Virus record (IMG/VR): IMGVR_UViG_3300017740_002194
Coordinates: 1 to 26,275 of that record
Length of the DNA stretch: 26,275 nucleotides
Reading direction: 5' to 3' (one strand)
Source: a virus
Of the stretch, positions 9,160 through 26,275 are shown piece by piece. The notes beneath the pieces are model-generated. The model had not been told where the DNA came from and did no database searches. It worked only from the letters and a program-made list of their open reading frames with translations. Made by a program: the position numbers and the translations under genes. Numbering within the stretch: the first letter of the stretch is position 1; the number at the start of each line of letters is the position of its first letter.

Positions 9160-9696
9160 ATGACAAATTTAGAAGATTTAAAAGCAGAAAGAACAGAACT
9201 TGAAGGTAAAGTTACTGAGCTTGCTAAAGAAAATGCGGCTAAGATTTTTAATGTAGAAGTTGAAGACGTATCAATGATTAAAACAATTCAAGACCATTTA
9301 AATAAAGGATATACTTGGGAAACTAAGAATGCAGCTATTGTTGTAACTTTATTTGATAGGTTAAAAGCAGAAAGAAGTAGAATTAAAAAAGAAATGGAAA
9401 CCGCAGGTGACGATTATAAAGTAACACTAGAGCTTAAGGCTTATGAGTTAAATGGTCTCTATCAAGCATTATTAAACGTAAATGGAACTGGCGTTGAAAA
9501 CGCAAGAAAATTTGTAAAGATGCTTACATTAGTAGGTGAGTCAGTAACTAATGCAATGAATGAACTTACTGAGTCTAATAAAGAAATTTCAGAAATGCAT
9601 GTTAGATTAAGAGATCTTGACACTAACATTACTGCAATGGAAAATACGGAAGAAGTTGAACCTACTTTAGAAACTGCAGATGAAACAGAAGGTTAA
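9160..9696 (+). CDS. Coiled-coil protein, 178 aa, unknown
   Basis: Preceded by GATATATAA and an AAACAAATAATG start context. Both ends look helical and coiled-coil-like (DLKAERTELEGKVTELAKE near the start; residues about 130-165 near the end). The middle is mixed helical (TWETKNAAIVVTLFDRLKAE), and the tail is acidic (EEVEPTLETADETEG). No cysteines. This could be a structural or scaffolding-like protein, but no family is recognised. The end overlaps the next gene by 17 bases. Confidence 0.65.
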   Translation: MTNLEDLKAERTELEGKVTELAKENAAKIFNVEVEDVSMIKTIQDHLNKGYTWETKNAAIVVTLFDRLKAERSRIKKEMETAGDDYKVTLELKAYELNGLYQALLNVNGTGVENARKFVKMLTLVGESVTNAMNELTESNKEISEMHVRLRDLDTNITAMENTEEVEPTLETADETEG

Positions 9697-10216
9697 GAGT
9701 CAAAAGAGATTAGACTTCATGGAATTAATTTCTGAAGCTATTACACAAGACGATATATTTAATACAATTGATTATAAAAACAAGACTGAAGATCAAATTA
9801 AACAATTTGTTTATCCTCATCTTGTACAATCACTAACTCAATATTTAGTTGAAAATACTGATACTACTGCTGAGAAAGCAAAGGCTAAAGTAAAAGGAAA
9901 CTTAAAATGGGAAGGTGATGTAAATTCTACTGTACACCATACATTATTTATGGGAACATTGAATAGACCAGACATGGTATTAGAAATGAACGGTATGAAT
10001 ATTGCAATTGAATTTAAAAAAGGTGAAAGTGGAAATAGTTTAAGAAGTGGAATCGGACAAAGCCTTGTTTATTCAACAAATTATGATTTTGTAATGTATC
10101 TTTTTATTGATACATCAAAAGACCAAAGAATCAAGAATGCTCAAACTTCAACAAATGAAGCTGAATTAATGACAGATCTTTGGAACAGATACAACATTAA
10201 ATTTATAGTAGCCTAA
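9680..10216 (+). CDS. PD-(D/E)XK nuclease-like protein, 178 aa
   Basis: The C-terminal half shows a clear restriction-endonuclease-like core. RPDMVLEMNG gives P97-D98, NIAIEFKKGE gives E111-x-K113, then a helix with GIGQSLVYS (Q127), and the strand DFVMYLFIDTSKD. These are the D, E-x-K and Q positions of the PD-(D/E)XK superfamily. Residues 1-90 are helical and may bind DNA. The start at 9680 overlaps the previous gene by 17 bases; ATG 9719 (MELISEA) is an alternative. Likely roles are host DNA degradation or replication-fork processing. Confidence 0.7.
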   Translation: MKQKVKSQKRLDFMELISEAITQDDIFNTIDYKNKTEDQIKQFVYPHLVQSLTQYLVENTDTTAEKAKAKVKGNLKWEGDVNSTVHHTLFMGTLNRPDMVLEMNGMNIAIEFKKGESGNSLRSGIGQSLVYSTNYDFVMYLFIDTSKDQRIKNAQTSTNEAELMTDLWNRYNIKFIVA

Positions 10217-19201: not shown

Positions 19202-19783
19202 ATGAGTCCAACAGAGTTATACGAAGCGAAGCCCTATAAGATGGGAAAGATCTTAGTTTTTGACTTAGATGATACCATCGTTGTTACACCAGCTAAAATT
19301 CAAGTTAAGAATAAAATGACTGGCGAAACGTTTTCTATTACTCCAGAAGAGTTTAATACTTTTCAAAAAAAACCAAATCAAATCCTAAGTTTCGAAGAAT
19401 TTAAAAGTCTTGAAATAATGAAAGCTGGTAAGCTTATTAATTATTATTTTAAAATACTAAAGAAGGCATATAAAATGAGAATAGCAATAGGGATTGTTAC
19501 AGCAAGGGATGATAAAAAAATGATTTACACTTGGTTAAAAGATCATTTAAAAACTCCAGTTGACAGCGATTTGATATTTGCAGTCAACGATCCAGTACAT
19601 GGATTTAAAGGAGATATTGCAGAAAAAAAGAAAGAAGCATTTAGAGAAATTATAAAGCAGGGATTTAACGACCTACAATTTTATGACGATGATGACAATA
19701 ATTTAAGGTTAGTAAAGTCTCTGGAAGAAGAATTTCCAATGATAAATATATCAACAATTAAAGCATTTAAGTCTAGAGGATGA
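19202..19783 (+). CDS. HAD-superfamily phosphatase-like protein
   Basis: 193 residues with VFDLDDTIVVTP (D21 and D23, motif I), IGIVTARDD (T100, motif II) and LQFYDDDDNNL (D162-165, motif IV). It resembles a phage HAD group with a TGE-x-F-x-[IL]TPEEF insertion between motifs I and II, here at residues 40-51. The substrate is unknown; a nucleotide or nucleic-acid phosphate is plausible. The start may be ATG 19202 or ATG 19241 (MGKILVFDLDDT), the latter suiting the promoter motif better. It overlaps the CCA-adding enzyme gene by four bases (ATGA). Confidence 0.8.
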   Translation: MSPTELYEAKPYKMGKILVFDLDDTIVVTPAKIQVKNKMTGETFSITPEEFNTFQKKPNQILSFEEFKSLEIMKAGKLINYYFKILKKAYKMRIAIGIVTARDDKKMIYTWLKDHLKTPVDSDLIFAVNDPVHGFKGDIAEKKKEAFREIIKQGFNDLQFYDDDDNNLRLVKSLEEEFPMINISTIKAFKSRG

Positions 19784-20937
19784 GAAGATTAAAACTATAT
19801 GAAGAATTTAGTCTCATCCAAGAGGCTCAACAAAAGCTTAAATTAAACGTCCCAAAAGACGTTAAAAAATTACATGCACTTTTCAAGAAAAATGGAAAGG
19901 AATTGTATATAGTGGGAGGAGCAGTTAGGGACGCTCTTCTTGGAACAACACCGAAAGACTTCGACTTGGCGACAGATGCGTTGCCGGAAGAAGTAGTAGC
20001 CATAATTAAGTCCGGAGGCTACGATACAATAGGTGAGGTTGGCCAACAGTTCGGCGTTGTTATTGTGAAGACTCCTACTTTTAGGGAGGGTATGGAGATA
20101 GCTACGTTCAGGGAAGACATCGGAAAGGGTAGAAGACCTGATGCAGTCAAATATTCTACGATAGACGCCGACGTGTTGCGAAGGGACTTAACAATCAACG
20201 CACTCTTCTACGATATCGATAGAGAGGAAGTTGTAGATCTTGTGGGTGGCATTGCTGACATTCAGAGCAGCACCATCAGGACGGTAGGCAGGGCACAGGA
20301 GAGGTTCGACGAAGATCCCCTAAGAAAACTAAGAGCCTTAAGATTTGCAGGCCGCACAGGTAGCAAATTAGAAAAGAATACAGCAGAAGCAATTATTAGT
20401 GATAACAGTCTCAAAGGCGTAAGTCCAGAAAGAATTAGAGATGAATTTAAAAAGTCAGTAATTTCGGCAAAGTCAACTAAAAAATATTTAGAAATGGTTG
20501 AGGAGTTTAAACTATGGGGAGTAATGTTTCCAGATGTTAATATTAACAAGACGTTTATTGATAATAAAAATTGGATGATTCAAATTGCAACTCTATTTGG
20601 AGATAATGAAGTTGACACAATTAAGAAGAGATTAAATAAGCTTACATTTTCAAATGAGGAAATTGACACAGTTGTATTTTTAAAGAATTTACTGGATATT
20701 AAACCAGAAGAAATATTTGAACTCTATAAAAAATATCAAACAACAGATATAGATAAAAGAACTATCTTAGATTGGAGTCGCTTAAACAGATTAGACACAA
20801 GGATGGTAAAAGCATTCTTAAAATATAAGCCATCAACAGATGGTAGAACTGTAATGAAAGACTTTGGCGTTAAAGGGCCAGACATTGCACAAAAGATTAG
20901 AGAAATAGAAGCAGAGAAGTTTAGAGAGTTGTTATGA
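19780..20937 (+). CDS. cca: CCA-adding enzyme (class II tRNA nucleotidyltransferase) with a capsid-targeting-like leader
   Basis: 385 residues. The class II core is clear: LYIVGGAVRDALLG (43-55), KDFDLATD with D60 and D62 as metal ligands, ATFRED (108-113), LRRDLTINALFYDI (133-146) and RFDEDPLRKLRALRFAGR (175-192) with the EDxxR motif at 178-182 that selects C and A. No poly(A)-polymerase signature is seen, favouring CCA addition. Both phage tRNAs lack CCA. The first 16 residues (LKLYEEFSLIQEA part) resemble the T4 capsid-targeting leader. The bases encoding about residues 43-187 have nearly 49% GC, against about 29% just after. Confidence 0.88.
   Translation: MRRLKLYEEFSLIQEAQQKLKLNVPKDVKKLHALFKKNGKELYIVGGAVRDALLGTTPKDFDLATDALPEEVVAIIKSGGYDTIGEVGQQFGVVIVKTPTFREGMEIATFREDIGKGRRPDAVKYSTIDADVLRRDLTINALFYDIDREEVVDLVGGIADIQSSTIRTVGRAQERFDEDPLRKLRALRFAGRTGSKLEKNTAEAIISDNSLKGVSPERIRDEFKKSVISAKSTKKYLEMVEEFKLWGVMFPDVNINKTFIDNKNWMIQIATLFGDNEVDTIKKRLNKLTFSNEEIDTVVFLKNLLDIKPEEIFELYKKYQTTDIDKRTILDWSRLNRLDTRMVKAFLKYKPSTDGRTVMKDFGVKGPDIAQKIREIEAEKFRELL
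19905..20340 (+). other. Higher-GC segment inside the CCA-adding enzyme gene
   Basis: Counting by hand, bases 19921-20340 hold 204 G+C of 420 (48.6%), while 20341-20760 hold 121 of 420 (28.8%) and 19861-19920 hold 18 of 60. Codons such as AGG, GGC, GTG, GAC and CGA are frequent here and rare elsewhere. The frame is unbroken across both edges. The segment corresponds to the catalytic head domain, so intragenic recombination from a less AT-rich source is the simplest reading. Confidence 0.85.
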
Positions 20938-22059: not shown

Positions 22060-23898
22060 ATGGAAAAATATCATATTATAACTAGATGCACTAGGTTGCA
22101 AAACCTTTTGCAAATTAAAGAGAATGTATATAATTGCTCTGAAAATATAGAAATAAATTGGCATCTTATATTTGATGTAGGTCCATTAAAAGACATAGAC
22201 GCTGAACTTTTAGCAGAATTAACAGAAAAAGAAACTACAAATGTTTATTTTGTAGAAGGAACTAAAAAAGGACTATTATATCCTGAAGTTTCTAATTTAA
22301 TTTCTAAAATAAAAGAAGGATGGATTTATTTATTAGATGATGATAATATTTTACACGAAGACTTTTATGAAGAAACTTTAAAAAGCATTATTAGTAATAA
22401 AGACAAATCAGTTCATATTTTTTCACAAAAGGTAGATGGAAAGGATTTTACAGGCTTAGATATAAGAGTAGCAAGTCCTGAAAATACAAAATGGCAAGGT
22501 ATTGATATTGCACAAATGCTTATTGATAGAACTGTATTTAATGATTTTAAATTTGAGGCTAATTATTCAGCAGATGGATTTTTTATAGAAAAGGTATACG
22601 CAGATCGACCTGATAAATTTATATGGATAGATAAGATTTTATCATATTATAATTATTTAGAAAAAGATTCTACTCCTAAATTACCTAGAATTTTACATAT
22701 GGGTCCTAAGAAAAAAGAATTAAAGACTGGTATAATAGCAAAGGGAGCTGCTGTTGAACTTGAAATTTTATATAGAGAAAATGATAACAACATAATTAAA
22801 GATTTATATGAATTTAATCCAGATGCTATAGTAACTGAAGGAAAATCATGGAAAGATTTTCCTAAATTAGCCAGTCTACCTTTACAGTTTAGAAGAAAAT
22901 GGATAAACCTTAAAGAACCTAAAAATAATTTAGGAGACATTGCATATAGGGTTGCAACTGCATCAATGTTAGATCCAACTAATTTAGATGATCAAACAAT
23001 GATCTCATTTTTTACTCCAATTTATAACACTGGAGATAAATTATGGGAAACATATGATTCTTTTAGAAAACAAACTTATCAAAATATAGAATGGGTTTTA
23101 ATGAATGATTCTACAGATGGAGGTAAAACTTTAAAGATAGCTGAAAAAATAGCAAGTGTAGATCCAAGAGTTAAAGTATATGATTTTAGAGAAAAAAGTA
23201 AAGGAAATATTGGTGAAGTTAAATGGAGAGCATGTGCAATGGCTAGAGGATATATTGTAGCAGAGTTAGATCATGATGATCTTTTAGTAAAAGATTGTGC
23301 AGAGTATTTACACAAAGCTGCTCAAAAACATCCTGAATGCGGATTCTTTTACAATGATACAGCATTGGTTAATGAGAAATGGGAATCACAGAAATATCCT
23401 ATACCATTCGCGTTACATTATGGAAGTTATAGAACTGAGACATATGATGGAAAAGAATTAGCTGTTGTTAATCAGCAAAATATAAACCCAAAAACAATTA
23501 GACATATTGTAGGGGTTCCTAACCATGTTAGAGCGTGGAGAAGATCTACTTATTTTGAAATAGGAGGACATAATAGAAGCTTTACAGTAGCAGACGATTA
23601 TGAATTATGCGTAAGGACATTTCTTAAAACAAAAATATGTAAAATACCAAGATTAGGCTATATTCAATTTCTTTATGAAGGAGAAAGAAGAAATACACAT
23701 GATCTTTCTAGAGCAGATATACAAAGAAGAGTAAGAAGTATACAGGCACATTATGACTTGCAAATTAAAGAAAGATTTGAAGAATTAGGTTTAGAAGATT
23801 GGGCTTATGCGGAAATGCCACAATATGCGACGTTTGCAAAACCAAGATTTGGAGACGAAGAAGGATACGCTAACGTCATATATAAAGAGGAAGAGTAA
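22060..23898 (+). CDS. Tandem glycosyltransferase (two GT-A domains), 612 aa
   Basis: Two sugar-transferase modules lie in one chain. The N-terminal one (about 1-205) begins YHIITRCTRLQNLLQI and has WIYLLDDDN with D93-95 as the metal-binding DxD. The C-terminal one (about 312-560) is a classical GT2 domain: MISFFTPIYNTGDKLWETY, IEWVLMNDSTDG, then VAELDHDDLLV (D404, D406, D407) and later WRRSTYFEIGGHN and ADDYELCVR. A linker of about 100 residues joins them. It would transfer nucleotide-activated sugars, perhaps to virion protein, phage DNA or host surface polymer. The RmlD-like and TagD-like genes could supply donors. It starts behind AATAAAATGG. Confidence 0.85.
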   Translation: MEKYHIITRCTRLQNLLQIKENVYNCSENIEINWHLIFDVGPLKDIDAELLAELTEKETTNVYFVEGTKKGLLYPEVSNLISKIKEGWIYLLDDDNILHEDFYEETLKSIISNKDKSVHIFSQKVDGKDFTGLDIRVASPENTKWQGIDIAQMLIDRTVFNDFKFEANYSADGFFIEKVYADRPDKFIWIDKILSYYNYLEKDSTPKLPRILHMGPKKKELKTGIIAKGAAVELEILYRENDNNIIKDLYEFNPDAIVTEGKSWKDFPKLASLPLQFRRKWINLKEPKNNLGDIAYRVATASMLDPTNLDDQTMISFFTPIYNTGDKLWETYDSFRKQTYQNIEWVLMNDSTDGGKTLKIAEKIASVDPRVKVYDFREKSKGNIGEVKWRACAMARGYIVAELDHDDLLVKDCAEYLHKAAQKHPECGFFYNDTALVNEKWESQKYPIPFALHYGSYRTETYDGKELAVVNQQNINPKTIRHIVGVPNHVRAWRRSTYFEIGGHNRSFTVADDYELCVRTFLKTKICKIPRLGYIQFLYEGERRNTHDLSRADIQRRVRSIQAHYDLQIKERFEELGLEDWAYAEMPQYATFAKPRFGDEEGYANVIYKEEE

Positions 23899-23915: not shown

Positions 23916-23924
23916 GATATATAA
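23916..23924 (+). promoter_or_regulatory. GATATATAA late-promoter-like motif
   Basis: GATATATAA in the 52-base gap before the giant ORF, 26 bases ahead of its ATG at 23951, matching the 25-29 base spacing at 9126, 12123 and 12976. Confidence 0.6.
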
Positions 23925-23950: not shown

Positions 23951-26275
23951 ATGGAAACTTTATTAACTTTAGAAATGGTTACTTTAGTCAATGGCTTAGC
24001 TATCCAACATTCTAGTGAATGGGAAGACTATTTAGAAATGAATGCACAAATTCATGGCATGACAAAAGAAGAATATACTGCACATTATTTAGGTACCCAA
24101 TGGCAAATGCAATGCATGGAAAGCTTACAAAGATTAACAGAAAAGAAAGTTACTCGTAAACAATTAGATAAAGCAATTAATGATCTTGCAAAAATTACAA
24201 ACGATCTTAAGAAAGTAGTAAAAGAGTGGGCAGCTGCAAGAGATGCTGGTAAAACTGAAAAGCAAGAAGAGAAACTACAGGAGCTTAAAAAACTAAATGA
24301 CGAAAAAACAGCTGCACAAAAAGTAGTTGATGATCACATTCAACAGTTAGATAAAAATGCAACTCTACAAACTACTGAAGATTTAGAATTAGACATTGAA
24401 TTACGTCCTAGTAGAGAAAAAATGTCAGTTACAATACCTGGTGATTTTGAAGATAATGAAGGAGAAAAAGCAGTAGAAGATGAATTAAAAAATCAAAATA
24501 AAGAATATAGAAGTTTTAGAGTTAAAGATATTAAATTAAAAGAATCCATGAATGAAAAGAAATCAGAATTTAAAGAAGGAGATAGAGTTAAGTTAACTCT
24601 TAAGGGACTTCAACAAATGAATAGAGACAGAACTCCTGGAATTTCAAATAACTATTCAAGAAGTTTAGGTAAAATTAAAGATAAAGATATCGCAGGTACG
24701 GTTGAAAAGGTTTTTCCTAGTGGAAGTATGAATGTAAGATTTGATGAAGTATTATATGATATTAAAGACTATATGGTAGTTAAAGAATCTGTAAATGAGA
24801 AATATAGAGAAACTAGACATCAATCGACTGATTTTTCTAAGCCCGGTAATGACGGCGATATTTACTTTTCAAAAAGAGAAGGTAGTGCTGTCGGTGTAAA
24901 AAGAGGAGATAAATTACAAATGATTTATGTTTTTCAAAAAGAACCTAAATTAGGAAAGATTCAAAAATCTGATAAACGTTGGGAAAACATGGGTCCAGCT
25001 TCTGAAAAACTTTTAATTGATTTAAGAGGTAGAGAAGAAGGTAAAATCTTATTTAAGTTTGTTTCCACACTTGAAGAATCAGTAAACGAAGCTGTTTCTA
25101 GATCTACTAAAATATATTGTGTTGCAACACCAGCTCCTCAAAAAATGTTAGTTCAAGAGTTAGAAAATATTTTTGGAGATGATTATAGAAATATAGTTAC
25201 AGAGTTCACGGACGATGAAGGTTATGAGTCAGTTTTATTATTTAATCTTACTAAAAATGATATCGCTTCAATACAAAAGAGAGTTGCTGATGTTTTAATT
25301 TGGGAATACTCAATTAAAAAGGGTAAAGAAATTATGGAATCTGTAAATGAAAAAATTCAAGTTGCAAGTTTAGAAGATGCAATAGAAGCTGAACAAGGTG
25401 GAGATTTAAACAAAAGACATTTAGATAAAATATTAAAACTTAAGGCAGCAAAAAGAATGCACACAATGACAAGGGCTGAAGAAAAAACTTATCAAGCAAT
25501 TCTTAGAAAATATAAAATTGCAATGGATGATGCACACGTTGGAGATATGATGGAAGCAATTGACATAGATATGATAAATACTGAATATGGCTTTTGGGGA
25601 ACTATGGCAGATTATCATGATGAAGAACAAGTAGAAATAGCAACCGAAGAAGCAATAACTATTTTAACAAGCAGGTATGGATTTACACAAGACGGAGTCT
25701 ATAACTTTTTAAATAGTAAATGGGGTAGAAAACTAGCTGATGAATATTTAGATGGTCAATACTATAATATGATAGATGCAATTGAAGCATTTACAAGACC
25801 ATCTACTTATAAAAAATACGCGAAACAATTTAACGAAGCGAAAGAAAATACTATGAAAAATTTACAAACATTAGAAAGTTTTATAAATGAAGATACTGTA
25901 GTTATGGATGCAATGGATCCTAAATCAAAGATACTTAAAAAACTTTTAAAGAAACATAAAGTTACAATGAAAGTTTTAGATCCTAATGGACCAAGTGGTT
26001 GGCCAGAAGTTGAGCTAACAGGTTCAAGAGAAGATCTACAAGCGGTTTTAGCATCTCCTGATGGATGGGACGATCCAGAACTTGGAGAGTATATTGAAGA
26101 AGCTAGTGCTGAAAAACTAGAAGAAAAGATTAAGGTTACTAAAGACGAATCGAAAGAAAATACTATGAAAAATTTACAAACATTAGAAAGTTTTATAAAT
26201 GAAGCTGCGCCTAAACTTAAAACAAGTAAAGAAGAAGCAGGTTTATTAAAACTAAGAGACGAAATACGTAGATCA
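23951..26275 (+). CDS. Giant modular protein with repeated ES-x-NE motifs (3' truncated by window edge)
   Basis: The frame is open for 775 codons and runs off the window. After a coiled-coil N-terminus (1-195), six motifs recur: ESMNEK (E198), ESVNEK (E279), ESVNEA (E376), ESVNEK (E463), ESFINED (E642) and ESFINEA (E746), mostly 81-104 residues apart. Between them lie different small domains: an SH3/KOW-like stretch (EGDRVKLTLKG, then GTVEKVFPSGSMNVRFDE), an alpha/beta segment (KIYCVATPAPQKMLVQELE) and helical parts. The last two motifs lie in MKNLQTLESFINE, which aligns with the T4 capsid-targeting leader MKTYQEFIAEA and ends in hydrophobic-x-Glu, the T4 prohead-protease cleavage pattern. 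A capsid-internal polyprotein is inferred. Confidence 0.8.
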   Translation, partial: METLLTLEMVTLVNGLAIQHSSEWEDYLEMNAQIHGMTKEEYTAHYLGTQWQMQCMESLQRLTEKKVTRKQLDKAINDLAKITNDLKKVVKEWAAARDAGKTEKQEEKLQELKKLNDEKTAAQKVVDDHIQQLDKNATLQTTEDLELDIELRPSREKMSVTIPGDFEDNEGEKAVEDELKNQNKEYRSFRVKDIKLKESMNEKKSEFKEGDRVKLTLKGLQQMNRDRTPGISNNYSRSLGKIKDKDIAGTVEKVFPSGSMNVRFDEVLYDIKDYMVVKESVNEKYRETRHQSTDFSKPGNDGDIYFSKREGSAVGVKRGDKLQMIYVFQKEPKLGKIQKSDKRWENMGPASEKLLIDLRGREEGKILFKFVSTLEESVNEAVSRSTKIYCVATPAPQKMLVQELENIFGDDYRNIVTEFTDDEGYESVLLFNLTKNDIASIQKRVADVLIWEYSIKKGKEIMESVNEKIQVASLEDAIEAEQGGDLNKRHLDKILKLKAAKRMHTMTRAEEKTYQAILRKYKIAMDDAHVGDMMEAIDIDMINTEYGFWGTMADYHDEEQVEIATEEAITILTSRYGFTQDGVYNFLNSKWGRKLADEYLDGQYYNMIDAIEAFTRPSTYKKYAKQFNEAKENTMKNLQTLESFINEDTVVMDAMDPKSKILKKLLKKHKVTMKVLDPNGPSGWPEVELTGSREDLQAVLASPDGWDDPELGEYIEEASAEKLEEKIKVTKDESKENTMKNLQTLESFINEAAPKLKTSKEEAGLLKLRDEIRRS
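25839..25892 (+). repeat. 54-bp direct repeat, unit 1
   Basis: Identical over 54 bases to 26151-26204 and in the same reading frame, encoding KENTMKNLQTLESFINE. The match extends a few bases upstream with a mismatch. The two units are 312 bases (104 codons) apart. Confidence 0.95.
26151..26204 (+). repeat. 54-bp direct repeat, unit 2
   Basis: Second identical unit, encoding the same KENTMKNLQTLESFINE, followed by AAPKLKTS instead of DTVVMDAM. Perfect base identity, including third positions, points to recent duplication or gene conversion. Confidence 0.95.

Follow-up and report, generated by a model that had tools for sequence, protein, structure and literature searches.

Exchangeable modules joined by motifs resembling prohead-protease sites suggest a head-internal cargo polyprotein in a T4-like marine phage

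The internal proteins IPI, IPII and IPIII of bacteriophage T4 are small, unlike cargo proteins, each with one N-terminal leader (MK-x-(F/Y)-x-x-F-I-x-E), in which positions 4 and 7 act in targeting and positions 8 and 10 in processing; Asp at position 10 prevents the processing and leaves targeting intact, and the T4 protease gp21 cleaves after L/I-x-E (PMC9026906). Several prohead-protease sites may also lie within one head protein, as in T4 gp22 and gp67 and in head proteins of SPN3US, where the cuts destroy the scaffold or propeptides (PMC9026906, PMC10052503). Polyvalent proteins, described by Iyer et al. (2017) from phages and conjugative elements, are mosaic, combine many unlike domains in one polypeptide, and are thought to be packaged and injected; their release is attributed to embedded zincin-like peptidases, common though not universal among them, and an analogy between them and viral polyproteins has already been made (PMC5512222).

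Here we describe a protein of an uncultured virus, hereafter the chain, that resembles a row of T4 internal proteins linked in tandem, and resembles polyvalent proteins as well. With the T4 internal proteins the chain system shares the form of the leader, hydrophobic-x-Glu processing motifs, small unlike cargo and an S77 protease, here found in relatives; in place of one leader per single protein, however, the chain has recurrent internal segments and interchangeable modules. Like gp22, gp67 and the SPN3US proteins it has several predicted prohead-protease sites, yet the segments between its sites are conserved, exchangeable domains. As in polyvalent proteins, unlike domains stand in a single polypeptide and are exchanged as a mosaic among chains, but in place of embedded peptidases the signal points to a prohead protease acting in trans: no peptidase family was detected in the chain or in ten related chains scanned, a search that a divergent member could escape. 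Our literature search gave no example of a polyprotein that a prohead protease divides, at serial sites, into conserved cargo modules. The suggestion in the first-pass annotation of this DNA that such a serial layout is undescribed thus holds, in the literature searched, for a cargo polyprotein, and does not hold for serial prohead-protease sites as such, which are known from gp22, gp67 and SPN3US.

The DNA analysed, hereafter the window, is a contig of 26,275 bases whose end truncates the chain open reading frame (ORF); the features of the locus are collected in Table 1. A 205-kb relative, G001, is collinear with the window at 91% DNA identity over 82% of the window, which is therefore a piece of a G001-kind phage. 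Orthologs of the chain measure 680 aa in G001 and 662 aa in a second relative, G002. In the alignment, the G001 ortholog extends 35 residues past the window end, so that about 35 residues are absent from the C-terminus of the chain; to call the ORF giant, as had been done, was an overstatement. Chain relatives are encoded on 21 viral contigs, while the window chain has no homolog among 50,697 phage records (INPHARED collection) and gave zero family matches against Pfam. Upstream of the chain, at window positions 22060-23898, lies a glycosyltransferase family 2 gene that is missing from the collinear G001 site; a 74%-identical stretch occurs at 162.8 kb in G001, and the gene may have been relocated.

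Table 1. Positions of the chain ORF, its putative promoter, modules, motifs and repeat in the window.
Feature	Position	Strand	Description
GATATATAA, putative virion-gene promoter	23916..23924	+	35 nt upstream of the chain ORF
Polyprotein-like ORF (chain)	23951..26275	+	775 aa, 3'-open; ATG start, no stop; full length of ~810 aa predicted by homology
N-terminal part	23951..24541	+	Residues 1-197: conserved domain, helical hairpin, acidic linker; no canonical leader
Motif 1, ESMNE	24542..24556	+	Residues 198-202
Module A	24557..24784	+	Residues 203-278; in G002, missing from G001
Motif 2, ESVNE	24785..24799	+	Residues 279-283
Module B	24800..25075	+	Residues 284-375; in G001, missing from G002; also in several other chains and ORFs
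Motif 3, ESVNE	25076..25090	+	Residues 376-380
Module C	25091..25336	+	Residues 381-462; missing from both G001 and G002
Motif 4, ESVNE	25337..25351	+	Residues 463-467
Module D	25352..25555	+	Residues 468-535; ends at candidate site MME|A, residue 535
phrog_8020-like module	25556..25837	+	Residues ~536-629; ends QFNE|A; phrog_8020 E 1.5e-12
54-nt direct repeat, copy 1	25839..25892	+	Encodes KENTMKNLQTLESFINE; internal ATG
Motif 5, ESFINE	25874..25891	+	Residues 642-647; full leader-like copy
Module E	25892..26185	+	Residues 648-745; phrog_5922-like, 'TVVMDAMDPKS' module
54-nt direct repeat, copy 2	26151..26204	+	Exact match of copy 1
Motif 6, ESFINE	26186..26203	+	Residues 746-751; full leader-like copy

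Six ES-x(1,2)-NE motifs divide the chain, at exactly the residues given in the first-pass annotation, and are spaced 81, 97, 87, 179 and 104 residues apart. In 20,000 shuffles of the chain the motif appeared 0.05 times on average and at most twice, and it is absent from the remaining 7,201 aa of window ORFs. The 179-residue interval contains additional candidate sites of the form hydrophobic-x-E|A: MME|A (residue 535) and QFNE|A (residue 629). Because the Ser codons of motifs 1 to 4 vary (TCC, TCT, TCA and TCT), the likeness of these motifs is at the protein level; motifs 5 and 6 both use AGT and lie inside the exact 54-nt direct repeat. Multi-motif ORFs hold 45 ES-x?-hydrophobic-NE motifs in 11,169 aa as against 10 in 226,330 aa elsewhere; of those 10, most belong to leaders, to protease ORFs or to ORFs of related chains.

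The position-by-position alignment with the T4 leader proposed earlier stands for the two ESFINE copies, which fit all four leader positions. The four ESxNE copies have Ser at position 7, where T4 has the targeting Phe, and preserve the processing positions 8 and 10; position 4 is hydrophobic. From this pattern, we infer that the ESxNE copies are chiefly cleavage signals. The N-terminus of the chain, METLLTLEMVTLVNGL, has no leader match and is not leader-like. Its leader-like segments are internal, at residues 642 and 746, and not in the N-terminal 10-19 residues; the chain is thus a protein that would work like a T4 internal protein and is not filed as one.

Leaders in the N-terminal position are frequent in the relatives, with leader-like N-termini on 16 G001 ORFs, where internal frequency predicts 2.6, and on 10 ORFs in another relative, G005, where 1.2 are expected. 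Over all loci there are ~110 distinct examples, with Asn at P2 in 41% as compared with 13% in internal controls. Their form is MK-x-x-K-L-F-E-x-F-(I/V/L)-N-E or a near variant, such as MKxxKLFEEFINE, and one in G001, MKTYEEFINEA, is almost the T4 leader MKTYQEFIAEA. ORFs with T4-like capsid-targeting leaders number dozens across genomes, 14 or so in G001, exceeding the number in T4, with sizes to ~800 aa, and their products are numerous candidates for packaging. Two genes elsewhere in the window belong beside them as observations: a 178-aa protein (9680-10216) with the leader-like N-terminus ...RLDFMELISEA and, by eye only, a PD-(D/E)XK-like pattern, RPDMVLE...IAIEFKKG, is possibly a packaged nuclease, and a tRNA nucleotidyltransferase (19780-20937; phrog_2244) has a leader-resembling N-terminus, MRRLKLYEEFSLIQEA.

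A gp21-like protease, for which the first-pass annotation had proposed a search, is found in relatives and not in the window. No S77 prohead protease is encoded in the 26-kb window, as expected of a fragment; S77 proteases above the family cut-off occur in G001, G002, G003 and G007, adjoining the portal and major capsid protein. In three of these genomes a single ORF combines the protease with a scaffold-like coiled coil (G001:85645-87540, L024; G003:28711-30591, L025; G007:16175-18538). The scaffold-like stretch in G001 contains seven [YH][LIV]AE sites and one YIAESINE motif, and the seven Y-x-x-[YH]-[LIV]-A-E repeats of this ORF are likely serial cleavage sites. Before the G001 protease is a gene for a 114-aa protein with the leader MKIKTFNQFITEA. 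The scaffold-like stretch of the clade sits in another ORF than the chain, which has conserved exchangeable modules instead. By major capsid protein, the closest named phages are Prevotella Lak and Tenacibaculum phages, on which basis our guess is a Bacteroidota host. Tenacibaculum phage PTm1 (NC_049340) has a related major capsid protein and a fusion that bears the annotation 'prohead core scaffolding protein and protease'; the search of 50,697 phage records gave no homolog of the window chain.

As putative cleavage sites, the chain motifs follow the gp21 rule with a wider range of hydrophobic residues. Of 62 motif instances, 59 have I, L, V, M or F at P3, against a background of ~28% and in a search whose pattern left P3 free. 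Among 51 positions compared in divergent pairs, conservation is highest at the P1 Glu (85%), and altered motifs become VTE, ISE or similar, retaining hydrophobic-x-Glu. P1' is mixed, often Lys or Glu instead of Ala or Gly. As remarked earlier, all six motifs of the chain end in hydrophobic-x-Glu, and by this pattern the chain carries candidate processing sites of the T4 type.

We prefer the reading, which we hold to be probable, of the chain as a head-internal cargo polyprotein that the prohead protease cuts as the head matures. A T4-like marine phage would make several small unlike domains as a single chain, which would be drawn into the prohead core, probably via the LESFINE leader-like segments, the N-terminal domain or both. 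The S77 (gp21-type) protease would then cut each hydrophobic-x-Glu motif directly behind its Glu, and the resulting separate small proteins would stay in the head, ejectable with the DNA. Cleavage, head location, cargo function and injection are thus what we infer for the chain; the sources that we searched contained no virion proteome for these phages. Were the chain instead a polyvalent injected protein kept whole, its motifs would be uncut linkers or docking tags for the scaffold core. Polyvalent phage proteins with 2-15 domains exist and the N4 virion RNA polymerase is packaged uncut (PMC5512222), and the permissive P1' residues would suit a protein of this kind; conservation, however, lies on the processing positions, P1 Glu and hydrophobic P3, Ser occupies the targeting position in four of the six motifs, and relatives have an S77 protease, so that we regard a whole protein as unlikely.

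Comparison among relatives favours the polyprotein reading. Between motifs 1 and 4 the window chain has modules A, B and C, the G001 ortholog B only and the G002 ortholog A only, and in the alignment of the three the module joints sit on ES-x-(N/D)E. At the end point of module D, G001 and G002 have an additional segment terminating YVSE|AIDIDM. A second chain, compared between G001 and G002, has gained segments of 116 and 172 aa, with motifs at both ends. The comparison of six pairs of chains gave 24 indel boundaries, and 14 of these lie no more than 8 aa from a motif Glu, where random positions would do so in 9.8% of cases (simple binomial ~5e-9, with boundaries that are not fully independent); the other 10 lie away from ES..E motifs, some of them at the hydrophobic-x-Glu sequences YVSE|AIDIDM and RVLNE|DYSQ. 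Among all chains and proteins, homology breaks within 10 aa of a motif at 33% of 480 ends, a count inflated by redundant loci, as against 9%. Module E directly follows hydrophobic-x-E in 10 of 10 sequences (FINE, PICE, GVFE, NLNE, SYNE, AIHE and LLNE), and five unrelated sequence contexts lie upstream of it in those ten. The same modules recur in unlike chains and as small stand-alone genes, many of which carry T4-like capsid-targeting leaders. As a layout, the chain of unlike small domains joined by targeting- or cleavage-like modules is therefore well supported, by the gain and loss of modules at motifs, the stand-alone leader genes and the S77 protease of relatives. The motif would double as an evolutionary joint at which leader-plus-cargo genes and chain modules interconvert.

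Exchange of this kind also bears on a different origin, in which neighbouring leader genes fused after stop-codon loss and the motifs are functionless relics that serve as recombination joints. We judge it improbable, for the four ESVNE/ESMNE motifs have varied Ser codons and no Met start, Glu is the best-conserved residue and the architecture recurs in many contigs, even though an exact 54-nt repeat with an internal ATG encodes both ESFINE copies, modules occur both free and fused, and local homology could promote exchange. Slightly less probable again is the production of separate proteins from internal translation starts, such as MKNLQTLESFINE at residue 635, and not by proteolysis. ATG codons do stand ahead of both leader-like segments, but we saw no strong ribosome-binding site, and Met is lacking from the leader position in most motifs. 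One related chain is split by a stop codon immediately before MTIEESVFNE (L004:10001-12004, compared with L005:10001-12004), which would suit internal starts; we did not accept it as a natural split, because the two copies are 99.6% identical and the stop codon results from a single-nucleotide difference, possibly a sequencing error.

The polyprotein-like chain and its module B were also modelled. The whole-chain AF2 model (17 rows) was poor, with a pLDDT of 47; the N-terminal part was predicted helical at residues 39-138, with generic coiled coils and helical hairpins as its top PDB matches. Modelled alone, module B gave a modest prediction (pLDDT 62) with no significant structural match in the PDB or among viral structures. 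Related chains match the DUF5824, HicA-like and HD phosphohydrolase families in Pfam. Two long ORFs, L078:5020-9633 (1,538 aa) and L080:1784-6445 (1,554 aa), have NEEVELDE-like repeats separating unlike modules that include the same three families, possibly the same layout with a different motif. Related pieces occur in small marine T7-like phages as well, which to our knowledge have no prohead protease, and for this reason the two ORFs were excluded from the evidence as a second flavour of the system.

The chain also appears to be transcribed in company with head genes. Of the 245 G001 genes, 34 have GATATATAA or GATATATA in the 60 nt ahead of them, compared with 2.1 in shuffles, and nearly all occurrences are on the coding strand. 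GATATATA is found before the core protein, the protease, several leader genes, chain ORFs and the window ORF; its presence before both head genes and chain ORFs suggests that the chain is co-expressed with virion genes. GATATATAA is found 9-55 nt upstream of ORFs in G001, G002, G003, G005, G007-G009, G011 and the window, and is a candidate for the late promoter of these phages. The T4 late promoter TATAAATA showed no enrichment upstream of genes, whereas GATATATAA was enriched. A putative promoter shared with tail and head genes would also suit a structural protein of several domains, in the tail or on the virion surface, with linkers that share the motif by chance. This is the least probable of all the readings, given that dozens of small proteins have the motif as their N-terminal leader and that modules occur alone behind leaders.

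If the chain is cut in the head, as the polyprotein reading predicts, it would be a swappable multi-protein delivery cassette within the virus head. One sequence rule would then identify the packaged, probably injected proteins of T4-like marine phages, which are now unrecognisable, and a phage polyprotein would deliver many small effectors at equal dose, in the manner of RNA viruses, with a ready joint for swapping them. On a wider claim our judgement is evenly balanced: that dozens of leader-tagged head proteins in each genome and chains of exchangeable cassettes would form a general cargo-polyprotein system, served by one protease at a shared leader-derived site, with new effectors acquired by insertion of modules at the cleavage joint. 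Such a system, if true, would be a mechanism of phage packaging, processing and evolution not previously described. The layout of the chain also points to a modular scheme by which several proteins could be loaded into one phage head.
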